Below are positions 37,554 to 54,939 of a stretch of DNA of 64,000 nt, one piece after another. The translations under genes and the position numbers were made by a program. The notes below the pieces were generated by a model, which did not search any database, had not been told where the DNA came from, and saw only the letters and a list, made by a program, of their open reading frames with translations. Within the stretch, counting starts at the first letter, position 1. Every line of letters starts with the position of its first letter. Origin of the DNA: Candidatus Acidiferrales bacterium (GTDB lineage: Bacteria; Acidobacteriota; Terriglobia; Acidiferrales; UBA7541); NCBI GenBank assembly GCA_035934015.1, contig DASYYH010000026.1, forward strand, positions 1-64,000. The letters are read 5' to 3'.

Positions 37554-37573
37554 GGCGTTGTAATCCTAAATGA

Positions 37574-37620
37574 ACGGCGATGGAGTTCGCCGTAACCGTC
37601 CGAAAGGGCTGATGACTCCT
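37574..37620 (+). ncRNA. Fluoride riboswitch aptamer (crcB motif)
   Basis: Conserved segments in order: GGCGATGGAGTTCGCC, AACCG, then GGGCTGATGACTCCT. This is the crcB-motif fluoride aptamer, lying just upstream of crcB. Fluoride binding should stop the terminator hairpin that follows from forming. Confidence 0.96.
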
Positions 37621-37649
37621 GGCTGCCACGAGGCGACCAGGAGTTTTTT
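37616..37649 (+). terminator. Intrinsic terminator of the fluoride riboswitch
   Basis: CTCCTGG (37616-37622) pairs with CCAGGAG (37637-37643) and is followed by TTTTTT. Its 5' arm includes the last bases of the aptamer (CTCCT), so the two structures exclude each other: an ON switch. Confidence 0.92.
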
Positions 37650-37682: not shown

Positions 37683-38054
37683 GTGCGGATCTTGTTGCTG
37701 GCAGGGTTTGGAATCGCGGGGACGCTGGCGCGCTACGGTTTGGAGGGCTTGATCCAGGAGCGAACAGGATCCGGCTTTCCTTTTGGGACGCTGTGCGTGA
37801 ATCTTTCGGGATGTTTCTTGTTGGGCCTTGTGGGGAAGTTTGCGTTAAACCACGTCTCGATTTCACCAGACTGGCGCATCGGAATCACGGTCGGATTCTT
37901 TGGGGCTTTCACGACGTTTTCGACGTTCGGCTGGGAAAGCGTCCGCCTGCTTGAAGATGGAGAATGGACAAGAGCGCTGCTTTACATCTTGGCAAGCGTG
38001 CTTGTGGGATTGGTGTTCATGCTCGCAGGAATGCGGCTTGGCGATGCGCTATAG
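37683..38054 (+). CDS. crcB: Fluoride exporter CrcB/Fluc
   Basis: 123 aa with four helices, the dual-topology fluoride channel. Seen: GIAGTLARYGLEG, FGTLCVNLSGCFLLG (with the conserved Asn), and the GAFTTFSTFGWE signature containing the channel Phe/Thr residues. GTG start with GGAG about 6 nt upstream. Controlled by the riboswitch immediately upstream and followed 9 bp later by a DUF190 gene. Confidence 0.96.
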   Translation: MRILLLAGFGIAGTLARYGLEGLIQERTGSGFPFGTLCVNLSGCFLLGLVGKFALNHVSISPDWRIGITVGFFGAFTTFSTFGWESVRLLEDGEWTRALLYILASVLVGLVFMLAGMRLGDAL

Positions 38055-48585: not shown

Positions 48586-48671
48586 CGCGGCGCGAGCAAG
48601 CATTACGGGTAAAATGAGGGGTGCGCATGAAATGGGGGAATCAAGCTTGACGACAGAGATTGCTGGAAACG

Positions 48672-49181
48672 ATGCGAACGCTGCCTGATCATCTTCGCCG
48701 CGGAATGAGACTGGTAATTGTGGGATGTAACCCAGGAGAACGCTCGGCTCGCGTAGGACATTACTATGCCGGCCGGGGGAATGAGTTCTGGCCGCTCTTG
48801 TATGATTCCGGCGTCATTCCGGAACCTCTCACCTACAACGATGACCGGCGCGTGGTTGAGTTCGGGATCGGCCTGACGGATCTTGTCAAGCGGCCATCTA
48901 AGGGAATTGAAGATATTGCGCGCGAGGAGTTCTCCGAAGGCCGCGTTCTGTTAGCGCAGAAGCTCGAGGAGTTTCGGCCGCAGCTTGTTGCTTTCAATGG
49001 GAAATTAGTTTACGAAAAATTTGCGGGGCGGCGCTGTTTCCTCGGACTGCAGAAGGAAAAGCTTTACGGAGCCACCGTTTTCGTTCTGCCTTCGACCAGT
49101 GCGAAGAATGCAAAAGGCCGCAGCGTGAAGATGCGTCATTTTAAGCAGCTTGCCAAAGTGCTGAATCGGATTCGGACCTGA
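48672..49181 (+). CDS. Mug/TDG-type mismatch uracil-DNA glycosylase
   Basis: 169 aa. The active-site motif reads VGCNPGERSARVGHYYAGRGNEFWPLL split across residues about 18-46 (family form GINPG...GHHFA...FW), keeping the catalytic Asn. A second motif LPSTSAKNAKG near the end matches the (M/L)PSSSA loop that holds the flipped base. Excises uracil or thymine from G mismatches. ATG at 48672; a TTG at 48660 is possible. Unrelated in function to its acyl-CoA neighbours. Confidence 0.88.
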   Translation: MRTLPDHLRRGMRLVIVGCNPGERSARVGHYYAGRGNEFWPLLYDSGVIPEPLTYNDDRRVVEFGIGLTDLVKRPSKGIEDIAREEFSEGRVLLAQKLEEFRPQLVAFNGKLVYEKFAGRRCFLGLQKEKLYGATVFVLPSTSAKNAKGRSVKMRHFKQLAKVLNRIRT

Positions 49182-49252: not shown

Positions 49253-50047
49253 TTGCCATCCATGGGAGAAACAAATGTCGCCGCGCGGAAATATACGGCC
49301 GGCGAATTAATGGTTGTAGCCGCAGCGAGAGAAATCGCCAACAAGGAATTGGTGTTCGTTGGCATGCGGCTTCCGCTGCTCTCTTTTCTGATTGCGAAGC
49401 TCACGCATGCGCCGCAGGCGGTTGGCCTCTATGAGAACGGCGTAATTCGCGAGACTCCCTCGCCGGAGATGCTCTACACAATGGGTGATCCGCCGAACCT
49501 TCGAGGAGCTACACTTTGCGGACAGATGATCGACGTGATGTCGTTTCTGCAGCAGGGGCGCGTCAATGTCGGCTTTCTCGGGGCGGCAGAAGTCGACCGG
49601 TTCGGCAATCTGAATTCGACATGGGGACGACGGGCCGGTGTGGCTGTGCGCTTGCCGGGTTCCGGTGGTGCGTGCGATATCGCGTGCCTTTCGCAACGCA
49701 CCGTGGTGTTGCTCGCGCACGAAAGGCACCGGCTTGCGGAGCGCGTGAGCTATGTGACTTCGCCGGGATTTGGCACCGGTGATCGCTGGCGGCGCGAACA
49801 TGGCTTGCCGCACAAGTCGGGCCCCTCGGCAATCATCACGACGCGAGGGGTACTGCGTTTTGGTCCAGACGGCGAAGCGTATCTCGCCTCTGTTCATCCC
49901 GGTGTGCCTGTTGAAGAAGTCCTGGCAAGTACTTCATGGACATTGCGAGTGGCGGAGCACCTGGACGAAACGGCCCCGCCTTCCGCTGCGGAGCTTCGCG
50001 CGATGCGCGATCTCGATCCAAAAGGATTCTGGACTGGCCGGCAATGA
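49253..50047 (+). CDS. CoA-transferase, beta-type subunit
   Basis: 264 aa, family I CoA-transferase (glutaconate CoA-transferase B-like). Segments YTAGELMVVAAAREIANKE, the GVIRETPSPEM region, and LGAAEVDRFGNLNSTWG are typical of the subunit. TTG at 49253 or ATG at 49262. The alpha-type partner is not adjacent but at 50819, with a crotonase gene between them, an arrangement suggesting that all three act on one pathway. Confidence 0.87.
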   Translation: MPSMGETNVAARKYTAGELMVVAAAREIANKELVFVGMRLPLLSFLIAKLTHAPQAVGLYENGVIRETPSPEMLYTMGDPPNLRGATLCGQMIDVMSFLQQGRVNVGFLGAAEVDRFGNLNSTWGRRAGVAVRLPGSGGACDIACLSQRTVVLLAHERHRLAERVSYVTSPGFGTGDRWRREHGLPHKSGPSAIITTRGVLRFGPDGEAYLASVHPGVPVEEVLASTSWTLRVAEHLDETAPPSAAELRAMRDLDPKGFWTGRQ

Positions 50048-50811
50048 TCGCATACAAGAACATTCAAATACACAACGGTGATCGCCTCGCGCGCATTGTT
50101 CTGAACCGTCCTCCGCTTAACGTAATGAATATCGCGATGATGCGTGAAATCGGCTGGGCGATCGATGAGCTTGCGTCGCAGATTGATTTCCTGGCCTTTG
50201 AAGGATCAGGAGTCAAGGCATTTTCGGCAGGTGCAGATGCCAGCGATCACAAAACTGAGCGAGTCGCGGAAATGTTGCAGACATTTCACGCGATATTCCG
50301 CAAGCTTTGGAAAAGCCCAGTCGTGACCATCGCCGCAGTGCACGGGCATTGTCTGGGAGGCGGTTTCGAGCTGGCGACGTTTTGCGATTTCTTGATTGCC
50401 GAGGAATCCGCAAGATTTGGCCAACCGGAGATTAAGCTGGGATGTTTTCCGCCTGTGGCAACAGTTACTTTGCCTCAGATTGCCGGCATGCGTGTCGCGA
50501 CCGACTTAATATTGAGCGGTCGGACGATTTCGGCAAGCGAAGCTCAGCAGCTTGGGCTCGTTTCGCGGGTTGTCCCAGAGGGTGCGTTGGATGGCGCGGT
50601 GAGAACGCTTGTAAATGACTTACGCGCATTGAGTCCGCGAGTACTGGGTATGGCGCGGCGTGCGCTCTGGGATGCAGCAGGATTCGATTTTGATCGCAGG
50701 CTGAAGGCCGTTGAGGATTTTTATTTGGGAGAGCTGATGAAGACCGAAGACGCGCAGGAGGGAATCCGAGCGTTTCTCGAAAAACGCGATCCCGCTTGGC
50801 ACGGACGGTAA
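50044..50811 (+). CDS. Enoyl-CoA hydratase, dienoyl-CoA hydratase-like
   Basis: 255 aa crotonase. ATG at 50044 overlaps the upstream stop (ATGA). Catalytic Glu residues in GGGFELATFCDF and GQPEIKLGCFPPVA are present; the CFPPVATVTLP loop replaces the usual PGxGGTQRL and, with LNRPPLNVMNIAMM, resembles cyclohexa-1,5-dienecarbonyl-CoA hydratases. That would fit an aromatic-ring degradation route, but no ring-reducing enzyme is in the window, so the substrate is an inference. Confidence 0.85.
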   Translation: MIAYKNIQIHNGDRLARIVLNRPPLNVMNIAMMREIGWAIDELASQIDFLAFEGSGVKAFSAGADASDHKTERVAEMLQTFHAIFRKLWKSPVVTIAAVHGHCLGGGFELATFCDFLIAEESARFGQPEIKLGCFPPVATVTLPQIAGMRVATDLILSGRTISASEAQQLGLVSRVVPEGALDGAVRTLVNDLRALSPRVLGMARRALWDAAGFDFDRRLKAVEDFYLGELMKTEDAQEGIRAFLEKRDPAWHGR

Positions 50812-50818
50812 GTTCAGA

Positions 50819-51742
50819 ATGGGTGCAGAGTCAAAAGTCGTCAGCATGAGAGAAGCCATTGGGCGCCATGTACCTTCAGGCTCGATGGTGTTAATGGGCG
50901 CGCAGCTTGAGCCTATGATTCCGTTTTCGGCGGGGCACGAACTGATTCGCCAGGGCCGGCGCGATTTGACGCTCGTGGGGCCGATTTCCGACATTCTGTT
51001 TGACCAGTTGATAGGCGCGGGCTGTGTTGAGCGAGTGATGGCTGCGTGGGTTGGCAATGTGTCTGAAGGGACCGGCTATTGCTTCCGGCGTGCGGTCGAA
51101 GCGCAAATTCCGAGGCGGATTGATGTAGTCGATTATTCGAATTTCACACTGGCGCTCGCTCTTCATGCAGGCGCCTTGGGCATACCGTTTATGCCTACGT
51201 ATTCGACGCTCGGGAGCGATCTCCTTAAGAAGAATGGCAACCTGCGTGAATTCTCCTCGCCCGTCAGCGAGGAAAAACTCATTGCGGTGCGAGCGCTTCG
51301 CCCCGACGTTGCGATCATTCAAGTCCAGAAAGCGGATCCACAAGGGAATGCGCATATCTGGGGCAGCCTCGGCGTGGCCATCGACGGCGCGCGAGCGGCG
51401 AGGAGCGTGATGGTGGTTGCGGAAGAGATTGTCGCGCCGGAGGTGATTGCGTCCGACCCCAATCGTACACTCATTCCCGGCTTTCTCGTTTCTGCCGTGG
51501 TGCATGAGCCGGGCGGCGCGCATCCTTCGCCTGTGCAGGGTCACTATGGTCGCGATCACAGATTCTTCGCCGAGTATCATGACGAGACGCGTGAATTGGC
51601 TGAATTCGAGCGCTGGCTTGAGAAATGGGTATTGAGCGCGCCGGATCGCCGGGCATACCTTGATAAGCTCGGCGCGGCACGGACTTTTTCGCTTGCGGTG
51701 CGAGAGCATGCGTCCTCGGTGCCCGCTGACTTTGGCGTTTGA
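50819..51742 (+). CDS. CoA-transferase, alpha-type subunit
   Basis: 307 aa. Glutaconate CoA-transferase A-like: GSMVLMGAQLEPMIPFSAGHELI, RRDLTLVGPISDILFDQLIG, and ADPQGNAHIWG. Partner of the beta-type subunit at 49253. 7 bp after the crotonase gene, so the same operon. The donor/acceptor acid is unknown. Confidence 0.87.
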   Translation: MGAESKVVSMREAIGRHVPSGSMVLMGAQLEPMIPFSAGHELIRQGRRDLTLVGPISDILFDQLIGAGCVERVMAAWVGNVSEGTGYCFRRAVEAQIPRRIDVVDYSNFTLALALHAGALGIPFMPTYSTLGSDLLKKNGNLREFSSPVSEEKLIAVRALRPDVAIIQVQKADPQGNAHIWGSLGVAIDGARAARSVMVVAEEIVAPEVIASDPNRTLIPGFLVSAVVHEPGGAHPSPVQGHYGRDHRFFAEYHDETRELAEFERWLEKWVLSAPDRRAYLDKLGAARTFSLAVREHASSVPADFGV

Positions 51743-51773
51743 TTTTGATCTTGCTTTTGAATGAAGGATGACC

Positions 51774-52112
51774 ATGCCAGAAGATTTGTTTGCAAATATC
51801 GAAGTCGGCCCCCACGAGGTGAGGCAATCACTGGATCGCGGCGAAAAGGTTTTGTTCGTCGACGTGCGCGAGCCCTGGGAGCATCAGCTTTGCCACATCG
51901 AGGGATCGCAGCTAATCCCCCTAGGGCAGATCGCCGCCAATCTCCACGCCTTCGAGAATGCCCAAAATGTCGTAGTCTTTTGTCACAGTGGGCGGCGAAG
52001 TCTCGATGCAGCTGCGTGGCTGCGTTCACAGGGAGTTTCGAGCGCACGTTCCATGGCAGGCGGAATCGACCGGTGGTCTCGCGAAATCGACTCCAGCGTG
52101 CCGCGCTACTGA
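51774..52112 (+). CDS. Rhodanese-like sulfurtransferase
   Basis: 112 aa single-domain rhodanese. ATG at 51774 with GAAGG 6 nt upstream. Structure motif VLFVDVREPWEHQLCHIEGS and active-site loop FCHSGRRS with the catalytic Cys near residue 70. Transfers sulfane sulfur. The next gene, a Sec-containing ArsC/Spx-fold protein, starts 13 bp later, so the two redox proteins are transcribed together. Confidence 0.93.
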   Translation: MPEDLFANIEVGPHEVRQSLDRGEKVLFVDVREPWEHQLCHIEGSQLIPLGQIAANLHAFENAQNVVVFCHSGRRSLDAAAWLRSQGVSSARSMAGGIDRWSREIDSSVPRY

Positions 52113-52125
52113 AAGGTTTCAAATC

Positions 52126-52479
52126 GTGACAAAAGGAAAGATCAAATTCCTACAGAAGCCAACTTGAACCTCTTGCCGAAAAGCAAGAGGTCTCTTGCTC
52201 GAACACGGCGCTGATTTGGAAACGCGCGATCTTGGCAGAGAGCGGTTGAGTGCCGCTGAATTGGAAAGTTTGATCGGAGATCGCGATTATCGCCAATTTT
52301 TGAACTCGCGCAACGAACTCTATCGCGCGAAAAACATGAAAGAAAACCCTCCGTCGCGAGCGGAAGCGCTGAAAATGATGGCTGCCGAGCCAAATTTGAT
52401 TCGCCGCCCCGTGGTGATTGCCGGGAAGAGAATTGTATTGGGTTACGATGAGGAAGGGTTAAAGAAGCTCGTCGAGTGA
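52126..52479 (+). CDS. Selenocysteine-containing ArsC/Spx-fold protein (in-frame TGA = Sec14)
   Basis: 117 aa if the TGA at 52165-52167 is read as Sec; a standard translation leaves only the part from 52195. GTG at 52126 with AAAGG 9 nt upstream. The N-terminus becomes MTKGKIKFLQKPT-U-TSCRKARG: a UxxC (Sec14, Cys17) in place of the CxxC of ArsC/Spx/YffB-type glutaredoxin-fold proteins. The rest fits the family: LLLEHGADLETRDLG, FLNSRNELYR, PPSRAEALKMM, PNLIRRPVVIAGKRIVLG (cis-Pro loop and C-terminal strands). A bSECIS-like hairpin is at 52182-52199. Likely thiol/selenol reductase; substrate unknown. Frameshift or error is the alternative. Confidence 0.88.
52182..52199 (+). promoter_or_regulatory. 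Bacterial SECIS-like hairpin in the ArsC/Spx-fold mRNA
   Basis: AGCAAGA-GGUC-UCUUGCU: 7 perfect pairs with a GGUC loop, like the GGU-containing apical loop of the E. coli fdhF SECIS. The first loop base is nucleotide 22 after the UGA. An alternative hairpin (52169-52176 with 52183-52190) uses the same 5' arm. Confidence 0.78.
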
Positions 52480-52544
52480 GAAGTTGGAAACAACGCTGTA
52501 AGCCCCGTTGTGTCAATTGGCCTTGGTTTGCAAGGAGGGATAGC

Positions 52545-53414
52545 TTGGCATTGGAATCAGGCGGCCCGATCATCGATATCCACATCCATATTCAGCCACT
52601 ACACATGTTCAAACCTCACGCTCTGGCATTAATCCAAAAAGGACGCAAGGATTACGCGGAGGTTGAGAAATACACGTCAGATTCGAAGGCCTTTCTCAAG
52701 TTCCTGGACGAGATGGGAATTGAGAGAGCTGGCTTGATTAACTACGTCAGCCCTGAAGTTATTGGTTTTCCGCCGGAAGTGAACGATTGGATTGCCGATT
52801 ATTGCTCTACGGATCCGAAGCGACTGCTCGCATTCGGGTCCGTGCACCCGAAACATGTTCCCGATGCCGGCGCTGAAGTGGACCGCCTGGCAAAGATTGG
52901 CATCCGGGGCCTCAAGGTGCACCCTTCGCATCAGGAGTTTGCCCCGAATGCATATCGTGATGGATTCGGGCCGCTCGCGGCGATGTATGAGCGGGCTCAG
53001 GCAAACGGGATACCAGTGATGATTCACACGGGTACTTCTATTTTTCCCGGAGCGCGGAATCCATATGCTCAGCCGATCTTGGCCGACGACGTGTCCATCG
53101 ACTTTCCGAAACTTGTGGTTATCCTGGCGCACGGTGGCCGTCCACTGTGGATGAACGAAGCGTTCTTTCTTGTTCGCCGTCATCCGAATATGTACATGGA
53201 CATTTCCGGCATTCCGCCACAGCGACTCATGGAGTATTTTCCTCGAATCGAAGAAATTGCCGATAAAGTACTTTGGGGCACGGATTGGCCGGGGCCGGGA
53301 GTTCCCGCGATTCGAGGCAACATAGAACAATTTCGCAGGCTGCCGATTTCGGAAGCTGCGCAGCGCAAGATTCTCCATGACAATGCCGCGCGGCTGTTCC
53401 CCGTGGGTCCTTGA
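52545..53414 (+). CDS. Amidohydrolase-family (ACMSD-like) metal enzyme
   Basis: 289 aa TIM-barrel amidohydrolase. The frame opens at 52476, but the TTG at 52545 has a perfect AAGGAGG 6 nt upstream. Metal ligands visible: DIHIHIQ (HxH, residues 11-13), HPSHQEF, HTGTS near 158, and GTDWPGPG near 243. Members act as decarboxylases or hydrolases. The neighbours suggest degradation of a carboxylic acid feeding CoA-ester chemistry. Confidence 0.88.
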   Translation: MALESGGPIIDIHIHIQPLHMFKPHALALIQKGRKDYAEVEKYTSDSKAFLKFLDEMGIERAGLINYVSPEVIGFPPEVNDWIADYCSTDPKRLLAFGSVHPKHVPDAGAEVDRLAKIGIRGLKVHPSHQEFAPNAYRDGFGPLAAMYERAQANGIPVMIHTGTSIFPGARNPYAQPILADDVSIDFPKLVVILAHGGRPLWMNEAFFLVRRHPNMYMDISGIPPQRLMEYFPRIEEIADKVLWGTDWPGPGVPAIRGNIEQFRRLPISEAAQRKILHDNAARLFPVGP

Positions 53415-53475
53415 TATATTGTTTGTTGCAAGTCCCGGCAGGTCTGGATCGCTTCATTTTTCACAGGGAGAAATC

Positions 53476-54351
53476 ATGGAAATTAAAACCGTGCTAGTGA
53501 TCGGTGCCGGAACTATGGGCCGCGGGATCGCCTATTGCTCTGCGCTTGCGGGTTATCAAACGATTCTGGAGGATGTTTCGCAGCCAATGGTGGAGCAGGG
53601 GCTTGATTATATTCGTCGTGCTTTTGACGAAGGGGTTGCTCGCGGGAAAGCGACTGAAGAGCAAAAACAACAGGCCATGGCGCACATCACAACGTCGAAT
53701 GTGGTTCAGGATGCTTGCCGCCAGGCCGACTTCATTATTGAAGCGGTTCCTGAAGAAATGGAAACAAAGCTGGAGATTTTTACAATCCTCGACAAATTCG
53801 CGAAGCCGGGCGCGATATTCGCAAGTAACACATCGTCTCTCTCTATTACGGAAATGGCTGCGATCACATTTCGCCCCGAAAACTGCATCGGCATGCATTT
53901 CTTCAACCCCGTCCAGAAAATGAAGCTGCTCGAGATTGTCCGTGGGCTGGAAACTTCGGAGGCGACTGTCGCGGCATGCGCCGAGGCGGGAAGGAACATG
54001 GGCAAGGACGTAGTAGTCGTGCGCGAATCGCCTGGGTTCGTGACCAGCCGCATCAATGCCATGATTGGCAATGAGGCGTTTTTCATGTTGCAGGAAGGCG
54101 TTGCCAGCGCTGTTGATATCGACAAAGCGTTGAAGCTGGGGCTGAATCACCCGATGGGACCGTTTGAGCTTGTTGATCTCGTTGGTCTCGATGTGCGGCT
54201 GAGTATTTTGCAGCACTTGCATCGCACGCTGGGCGAAAAATATCGTCCGTGTCCGCTGCTTGAACAATATGTGAAGGCGGGCCGCTTAGGTCGCAAGTCC
54301 GGGCGCGGTGTATACGATTACAAAGAAGCAGGGGCCAAGCCGAAATCCTAA
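53476..54351 (+). CDS. 3-hydroxyacyl-CoA (3-hydroxybutyryl-CoA) dehydrogenase
   Basis: 291 aa. ATG at 53476 with AGGGAG 5 nt upstream. NAD-binding VLVIGAGTMGRGIAYCSAL; catalytic region ASNTSSLSITEMA and GMHFFNPVQKMKLLEIV (His-Glu dyad); C-terminal GLNHPMGPFELVDLVGLDV. Oxidises 3-hydroxyacyl-CoA, the step after the crotonases of the cluster. Confidence 0.94.
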   Translation: MEIKTVLVIGAGTMGRGIAYCSALAGYQTILEDVSQPMVEQGLDYIRRAFDEGVARGKATEEQKQQAMAHITTSNVVQDACRQADFIIEAVPEEMETKLEIFTILDKFAKPGAIFASNTSSLSITEMAAITFRPENCIGMHFFNPVQKMKLLEIVRGLETSEATVAACAEAGRNMGKDVVVVRESPGFVTSRINAMIGNEAFFMLQEGVASAVDIDKALKLGLNHPMGPFELVDLVGLDVRLSILQHLHRTLGEKYRPCPLLEQYVKAGRLGRKSGRGVYDYKEAGAKPKS

Positions 54352-54399
54352 ATTACGATTCCGTCGTGTGCTGCGTCCTGTATGTCGAAGGTTCTCACG

Positions 54400-54939
54400 A
54401 TGGCGAGTATCGAAAAGGCGATTTCTTTTCTGCAGGGCGATCTGACAGATATGGACGTCGACGCGATCGTCAATGCTGCAAACAACGATTTGCAATTGGG
54501 CGGAGGAGTGGCTGGCGCGATTCGGCGCAAGGGTGGCGAGGAGATTCAACGGGAGTGTGATGAGATTGGCTCAATTGCCGTTGGAGGCGCGGCGATTACC
54601 ACAGGTGGTCGTCTCAAAGCACGATATGTGATTCATGCGGCAAGCATGGCACTCGGCGGCCGAACGACAGCGAATGCGCTACGCAGTTCGGTAGGAGAAT
54701 CTTTGAAGCTTGCCGCACAGCACAGATTGACCAGCATTGCCTTTCCAGCCGTCGGAACCGGCATCGCTGCTTTCCCGATGCACGAATGCGCGGAGATTAT
54801 GCTGGAGGCGGCGACGCGGCACCTCGAAGGGACCACTGCCCTCGAAAAGATCTATTTCGTTCTCTTCGATGAACGAGCACTGAAAACGTTCGAGCAAGTT
54901 TGGAAAGATAAAGGCCCAGAGTCGCGCGCTGATTCTTAG
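54400..54939 (+). CDS. Macrodomain protein (ADP-ribose binding/hydrolysing)
   Basis: 179 aa. ATG at 54400 with GAAGG 8 nt upstream (an ATG at 54382 lacks one). Macro signatures: GDLTDMDVDAIVNAANN, LGGGVAGAIRRKGG and FPAVGTGIAAFPMHECAEIM. Similar to O-acetyl-ADP-ribose deacetylases. Not obviously linked to the acyl-CoA genes; possibly reverses ADP-ribosylation. Confidence 0.92.
   Translation: MASIEKAISFLQGDLTDMDVDAIVNAANNDLQLGGGVAGAIRRKGGEEIQRECDEIGSIAVGGAAITTGGRLKARYVIHAASMALGGRTTANALRSSVGESLKLAAQHRLTSIAFPAVGTGIAAFPMHECAEIMLEAATRHLEGTTALEKIYFVLFDERALKTFEQVWKDKGPESRADS

Follow-up and report, generated by a model that had tools for sequence, protein, structure and literature searches.

One of the closest described counterparts of the protein analyzed here comes from the 2008 Global Ocean Sampling (GOS) survey, in which a UxxC group termed "Arsenate reductase 2" was assigned to cd03032; the accessible part of that report gives 42 sequences with selenocysteine (Sec) and 238 with Cys, and it describes the UxxC motif as common to many known Sec thiol oxidoreductases (PMC2398784). 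The domain model cd03032 is ArsC_Spx (PMC8755942). A 2026 review includes two ArsC-related selenoprotein forms, the UxxC form NF041106 and the UxxS form of TIGR00014 (PMC13188914). In addition, YffB-type proteins are thought to be thiol reductases, and the Brucella YffB has a single Cys (PMC3169414). For selenoproteins of the Acidobacteriota, a partial literature search yielded a selenoprotein-prediction study that contained neither ArsC, arsenate nor Spx.

The window, a stretch of 64,000 nucleotides, comes from a soil acidobacteriote of Candidatus Acidiferrales and contains a gene of this kind, whose codon 14 is TGA (Table 1). The first-pass annotation had proposed that reading this TGA as Sec would restore a missing N terminus and a UxxC motif, and the read-through product, which begins VTKGKIKFLQKPTUTSCRKARGLLLEHGADLETRDLGRERLS... 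and has a mass of ~13 kDa, indeed had the complete ArsC/Spx fold, including the motif UTSC. Its prediction that a standard annotation would miss the functional N terminus also proved correct, in that the listing made without recoding gave a single 94-amino-acid open reading frame (ORF) starting from the TTG at 52195, too short at its N terminus to include strand 1 or the UxxC motif. Codon 14 almost certainly encodes selenocysteine, making the product a selenoprotein, an assignment for which the codon itself, its SECIS element, the genome's Sec machinery, the fold of the protein, and its UxxC pair all speak.

Table 1. Features of the selenoprotein locus and its surroundings (positions within the window)
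Feature	Position	Strand	Remarks
Uracil-DNA-glycosylase family	48660..49181	+	With the macro-domain gene, among the steadiest neighbors in relatives
CoA-transferase family subunit (B-like)	49253..50047	+	
Enoyl-CoA hydratase family	50047..50811	+	Nearest model cyclohexadienecarbonyl-CoA hydratase, under cut-off
CoA-transferase family subunit (A-like)	50819..51742	+	
Single-domain rhodanese	51768..52112	+	Active-site loop CHSGRRS; 13 bp upstream of the selenoprotein gene
Possible ribosome-binding site GAAAGG	52111..52116	+	9 nt 5' of the GTG; putative, from the sequence
Selenoprotein gene	52126..52479	+	GTG start, 117 aa, TGA stop at 52477-52479; ArsC/Spx fold; motif K-P-T-U-T-S-C
In-frame UGA, Sec14 codon	52165..52167	+	TGA or Cys in homologues; putative attacking nucleophile
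Competing 9-bp hairpin ACCTCTTGC/GCAAGAGGT	52168..52191	+	Starts directly after the UGA; not conserved
TGC, Cys17, resolving cysteine of UxxC	52174..52176	+	Invariant across the alignment
Bacterial SECIS hairpin	52182..52199	+	7-bp stem, GGUC apical loop, UGA-loop spacing 21 nt
Amidohydrolase_2 family protein	52476..53414	+	True start probably near 52546
3-Hydroxyacyl-CoA dehydrogenase	53377..54351	+	
Macro-domain protein	54382..54939	+	Downstream in most relatives

The homologous codon was TGA in 49 and Cys in 31 (26 TGC and 5 TGT) of the 80 named loci, and no other codon was found; likewise, the related-locus set (n = 55) had 35 TGA and 20 Cys codons at the exact position of codon 14. The first-pass annotation had singled out a different residue among homologues as the outcome that would count against selenocysteine, and the homologues had solely TGA or Cys. 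The TGA could instead be a chance in-frame stop, or mark a decayed gene, with the 94-amino-acid ORF as the true product. That ORF does exist, and decayed copies are known among relatives, one of which combines the TGA with an in-frame TAG in a genome in which SelB was not detected; however, Cys is exchanged for TGA alone across dozens of genomes, the hairpin and the N-terminal sequence are conserved, and the full Sec machinery is present. Given this conservation, a chance stop or a decayed gene can be excluded with near certainty.

The SECIS hairpin consists of AGCAAGA (52182-52188), the loop GGTC (52189-52192), and TCTTGCT (52193-52199). The first-pass annotation had placed a 7-bp GGUC hairpin 22 nt downstream of the UGA, which agrees with the 21 nucleotides that lie between them, the first loop base being the 22nd. 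Judged by the published bacterial SECIS (bSECIS) criteria (PMC13188914), the hairpin passes on all counts, with a 4-nt loop, G as the first loop base, 7 bp, 21 nt, and an energy of -8.1 kcal/mol for the hairpin alone with the UGA-proximal, ribosome-covered bases omitted. No Rfam match was obtained at the hairpin. In free RNA, the SECIS hairpin was not the minimum-energy fold, a competing 9-bp hairpin being slightly more stable; the SECIS hairpin formed once the UGA-proximal bases were omitted, as inside a ribosome with the UGA in the A site. Across the compared sequences, a complete competing hairpin occurred just in the window and in one relative (L180), and it was therefore treated as incidental, as a structure that the decoding ribosome would open. 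Free-RNA folding of the 61 nt 3' of the UGA gave z = -1.5 and a different hairpin, and single-sequence folding was therefore set aside as evidence in favor of conservation.

Conservation of the hairpin followed the Sec codon. In the related-locus set (n = 55), the stem had 6 to 8 bp in 34 of the 35 TGA copies and 5 bp or fewer in all 20 Cys copies. The main group had four distinct sequences with a compensatory change from a G-C to an A-U pair, and a similar change was found in 5 of the 11 sequences of a second group in which the hairpin was shifted by one base. Furthermore, Gly-Leu-Leu in the stem was encoded by GGT-CTC/CTT-TTG in every one of the 35 copies with these residues, as compared with an expectation of ~1.4% for GGT-CTY-TTG from the codon use of the window, where GGT accounts for 15% of Gly and TTG for 22% of Leu codons.

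The Sec machinery, whose absence had been named beforehand as an argument against the reading, was found in full in the host genome: a tRNA-Sec with anticodon TCA, SelA (566.9 bits), SelB (381.8 bits), and SelD (L128, 1315-2547), another selenoprotein, in which the motif AAGUAAK contains an in-frame TGA. Across the phylum-wide sample of 396 genomes, in 130 of which relatives were detected, SelB was present in 61 of 62 TGA-form genomes versus 30 of 67 Cys-form genomes (Fisher p ~1.6e-12); since the genomes are related and the counts are non-independent, this p-value serves as a guide only. The sole TGA-form genome without a detected SelB (G277) was the one harboring the decayed copy (L071, around 6400-5990, minus strand), in which the Sec TGA is kept and the further in-frame TAG forms a second stop. 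In another genome (G128), the copy L053 partly retained the SECIS hairpin sequence, with the preceding residues replaced, possibly through an assembly error or decay of the gene.

The gene was present in 54 of the 101 nearest genomes, and the nearest named records were metagenome-assembled genomes of Candidatus Acidiferrales and other Terriglobia (Acidobacteriota). Plasmid records contained distant relatives only, each with <60% identity. A tree of 76 relatives required about four Sec/Cys changes, and three were required when the SECIS-coding residues were masked (58 rows). The trees contained two well-supported Cys groups inside the order: in one (g214), the majority of genomes had no detectable full-length SelB, and in the other (g213), SelB was retained in the majority of genomes. 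Two TGA copies, L198 and L201, were located inside or beside a Cys clade. The L201 hairpin was built differently, with a 7-bp stem (GCTCGAC-AGTTC-GTTGAGC), and the same scan gave just 4 bp for L198; these copies may have an altered SECIS or may have returned from Cys to Sec. A reversion from Cys to Sec is not claimed, because a topology uniting the 13 Cys rows could not be rejected (p-AU 0.37).

Several other groups of ArsC-fold selenoproteins were observed across the phylum, some of them with a GGUC loop at a different distance from the UGA. A second UxxC group with the motif ICxxTUxTCRKAVALL (L077, L078, L080, L085-L087, L091-L093, L097, and L098) mostly had the hairpin GCAAGGC-GGUC-GCCUUGC, with the loop 17 nt after the UGA, versus 21 nt in the group described here. 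A TGA-containing ArsC-like group with the motif RNGUTSC (L090, L095, L096, and L101) had long hairpins 3' of the UGA and may correspond to NF041106. In addition, at one locus (L094), TGA occupied the catalytic position of an ArsC-type UxxS protein (HNPGUSKSR).

For profile searches, the product was used with Cys substituted for Sec. It matched the Pfam ArsC family (PF03960) with 65.5 bits (cut-off, 24) and glutaredoxin more weakly. The AlphaFold model was confident (pLDDT 93), and structures of Spx, ArsC, and YffB matched it about equally well (Foldseek E values as low as 1.5e-9; Z, 15 to 17). The alignment showed K11, U/C14, C17, A20, R94, P95, and G106 to be invariant. On the basis of the fold and the invariant U/C14-C17 pair, the protein is probably a UxxC thiol/selenol oxidoreductase.

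Two other functions were weighed. The first is that of an Spx-like regulator, which would bind RNA polymerase and alter transcription when its UxxC pair, serving as a redox switch, formed a selenenylsulfide on oxidation. The best solved-structure matches were to Spx, the nearest NCBIfam model was that of the Spx/MgsR RNA polymerase-binding proteins (TIGR01617), and R62 and R94 stand at the positions of Spx residues R60 and R92; moreover, redox switching is also conceivable for a UxxC pair. However, the TIGR01617 score of 69.7 bits, obtained with Cys for Sec, was just under the cut-off of 75.05, the Spx orthologue models scored far under their cut-offs, and among the activation residues of Bacillus subtilis Spx only R60 is kept, G52 and K62 being changed to Asp54 (in an alignment gapped near G52) and Glu64, alongside the replacement of R47 by Gly51. 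In B. subtilis Spx, K62E lowers activation and G52R is an activation-defective mutant (PMC2801614). A role as an Spx-like regulator is therefore unlikely. The second is arsenate reduction, with Sec in place of the catalytic cysteine of ArsC. This function would accord with the 65.5-bit Pfam match and with the UxxS arsenate reductase selenoproteins that appear in the accessible part of the GOS report (PMC2398784) and, in this phylum, at L094, but the product failed the ArsC equivalog model TIGR00014, with 41.5 bits against a cut-off of 106.05, and no ArsR- or ArsB-like gene was seen among the annotated neighbors. Arsenate reduction needs the triad Arg60/Arg94/Arg107 (PMC3169414), which an alignment with ArsC-type rows showed to be reduced to the Arg94 equivalent, with Asn60 and Tyr107 in the other positions, and we consider this function highly improbable. 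Since the arsenate reductase arginines are missing and key Spx residues are changed, it is probable from these comparisons that neither name fits, and the pipeline names nearest to the protein ("Spx/MgsR RNA polymerase-binding regulator" and "arsenate reductase") are probably wrong.

As a thiol/selenol oxidoreductase, the protein would work as follows. SelB, positioned on the GGUC hairpin and carrying Sec-tRNA-Sec, would insert selenocysteine at the UGA. Located where helix 1 begins, Sec14 would attack an oxidized sulfur substrate, such as a disulfide, a persulfide, or a mixed disulfide with a small thiol, and Cys17 would resolve the adduct, giving a selenenylsulfide that thioredoxin, glutaredoxin, or a small thiol may re-reduce. 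Arg94 and Pro95, the latter at the usual cis-Pro position of the fold, may shape the substrate pocket. The rhodanese and CoA genes nearby allow a guess that the substrate is sulfane sulfur or a CoA-thiol. Taken as a whole, the explanation of the gene as encoding a selenoprotein of the ArsC/Spx branch that receives Sec through SelB and the GGUC hairpin and acts as a thiol/selenol oxidoreductase is a likely one.

The frequent form of the locus in the order runs from the uracil-DNA-glycosylase gene through CoA-transferase B, enoyl-CoA hydratase, CoA-transferase A, and the rhodanese to the Sec/Cys-Spx gene, and continues, in some cases through a 4-hydroxybenzoyl-CoA reductase trio, with the amidohydrolase, 3-hydroxyacyl-CoA dehydrogenase, and macro-domain genes. 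In genus g214, several genomes have the gene directly between the glycosylase and macro-domain genes, without the acyl-CoA genes. The first-pass annotation had described an operon with a rhodanese across a 13-bp gap, had remarked on the acyl-CoA cluster, and had taken this setting as a hint at a redox role. The gap is as described (the rhodanese ends at 52112, and the GTG is at 52126), and the rhodanese is directly upstream here, but its conservation is confined to part of the order, where it was found upstream in 18 of 28 TGA and 8 of 20 Cys loci (26 of 48 in all), always with the active-site Cys kept. No upstream rhodanese was present in any examined locus outside the order or in 9 TGA loci with enough sequence, and it is not Sec-specific, as it also lies upstream of Cys forms. 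The hint at a redox role found weak support, but the acyl-CoA genes varied among relatives, and for this reason the idea that a conserved operon proves the function was dropped. The neighborhood as a whole weakly suggests a link between the gene and sulfur or CoA-thiol chemistry.

This link could take the form of a partnership in which the rhodanese and the selenoprotein move or remove sulfane sulfur (or selenium) in support of aromatic/acyl-CoA breakdown; the rhodanese would carry a persulfide that the selenoprotein reduces, for example, in the sulfuration of the molybdenum enzyme 4-hydroxybenzoyl-CoA reductase. The rhodanese with its intact active site in 26 of the 48 order-level loci is consistent with a partnership, as are the 4-hydroxybenzoyl-CoA reductase genes directly 3' of the gene in relatives, whose alpha subunit scored 1018.6 bits (cut-off, 994.55). 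Against it stand the 9 TGA loci and the loci outside the order that have no upstream rhodanese, the rhodanese genes beside Cys forms, and the reductase genes themselves, which are not beside the gene in the window or in rhodanese loci such as L163. We regard a partnership as doubtful and its narrower version, a dedicated sulfur (or selenium) relay of rhodanese and Sec-Spx for aromatic/acyl-CoA catabolism that would, for instance, handle the sulfur of 4-hydroxybenzoyl-CoA reductase, as very unlikely.

Two observations concern the surroundings. In relatives, the operon (L162, 2132-8675) includes 4-hydroxybenzoyl-CoA reductase, whose alpha subunit scored above the curated cut-off, and in some of them also a short BoxB-like protein, which suggests an aromatic-CoA pathway. 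Elsewhere in the window, a fluoride riboswitch at 37567-37628 lies upstream of a CrcB-like ORF (37683-38054).

In uncultured soil Acidobacteriota, the gene is one of a large and conserved selenoprotein group, the active site of which is lost under standard translation. Because Sec and Cys have been exchanged repeatedly within one order and the SECIS accompanies the UGA only, the group provides a good natural test of why selenium is retained in or lost from one enzyme.

Compared with known systems, the window protein shares with the Spx/MgsR regulators (TIGR01617) the fold, the position of the CxxC, and an RRP motif but differs in having Sec for Cys10, changes at K62, G52, and R47, and a score under the cut-off. 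With ArsC (TIGR00014), including its UxxS selenoprotein form, it shares the fold and the position of the nucleophile, whereas its motif is UxxC rather than UxxS and two of the three arsenate-binding arginines are missing. The YffB/ArsC-family reductases (NF008107) have the same fold, and one triad Arg is kept, but the protein scored 37.8 bits (cut-off, 121) and has UxxC in contrast to the single Cys of Brucella YffB. The NCBIfam family NF041106 (ArsC family (seleno)protein, ArsC_rel_Se_1) resembles it as an ArsC-related UxxC selenoprotein, and the score of 33.8 bits (cut-off, 85) places the window protein in a different subfamily. Finally, going by the accessible part of the survey report, the GOS "Arsenate reductase 2" group consists of marine reads presented with no operon context; it is alike in its UxxC motif and its Sec/Cys pairs and, as judged from the nearest models and structures (Spx), probably in its domain group. 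UxxC selenoproteins of the ArsC_Spx kind were already on record in 2008, and the window protein is probably a further member of this kind.
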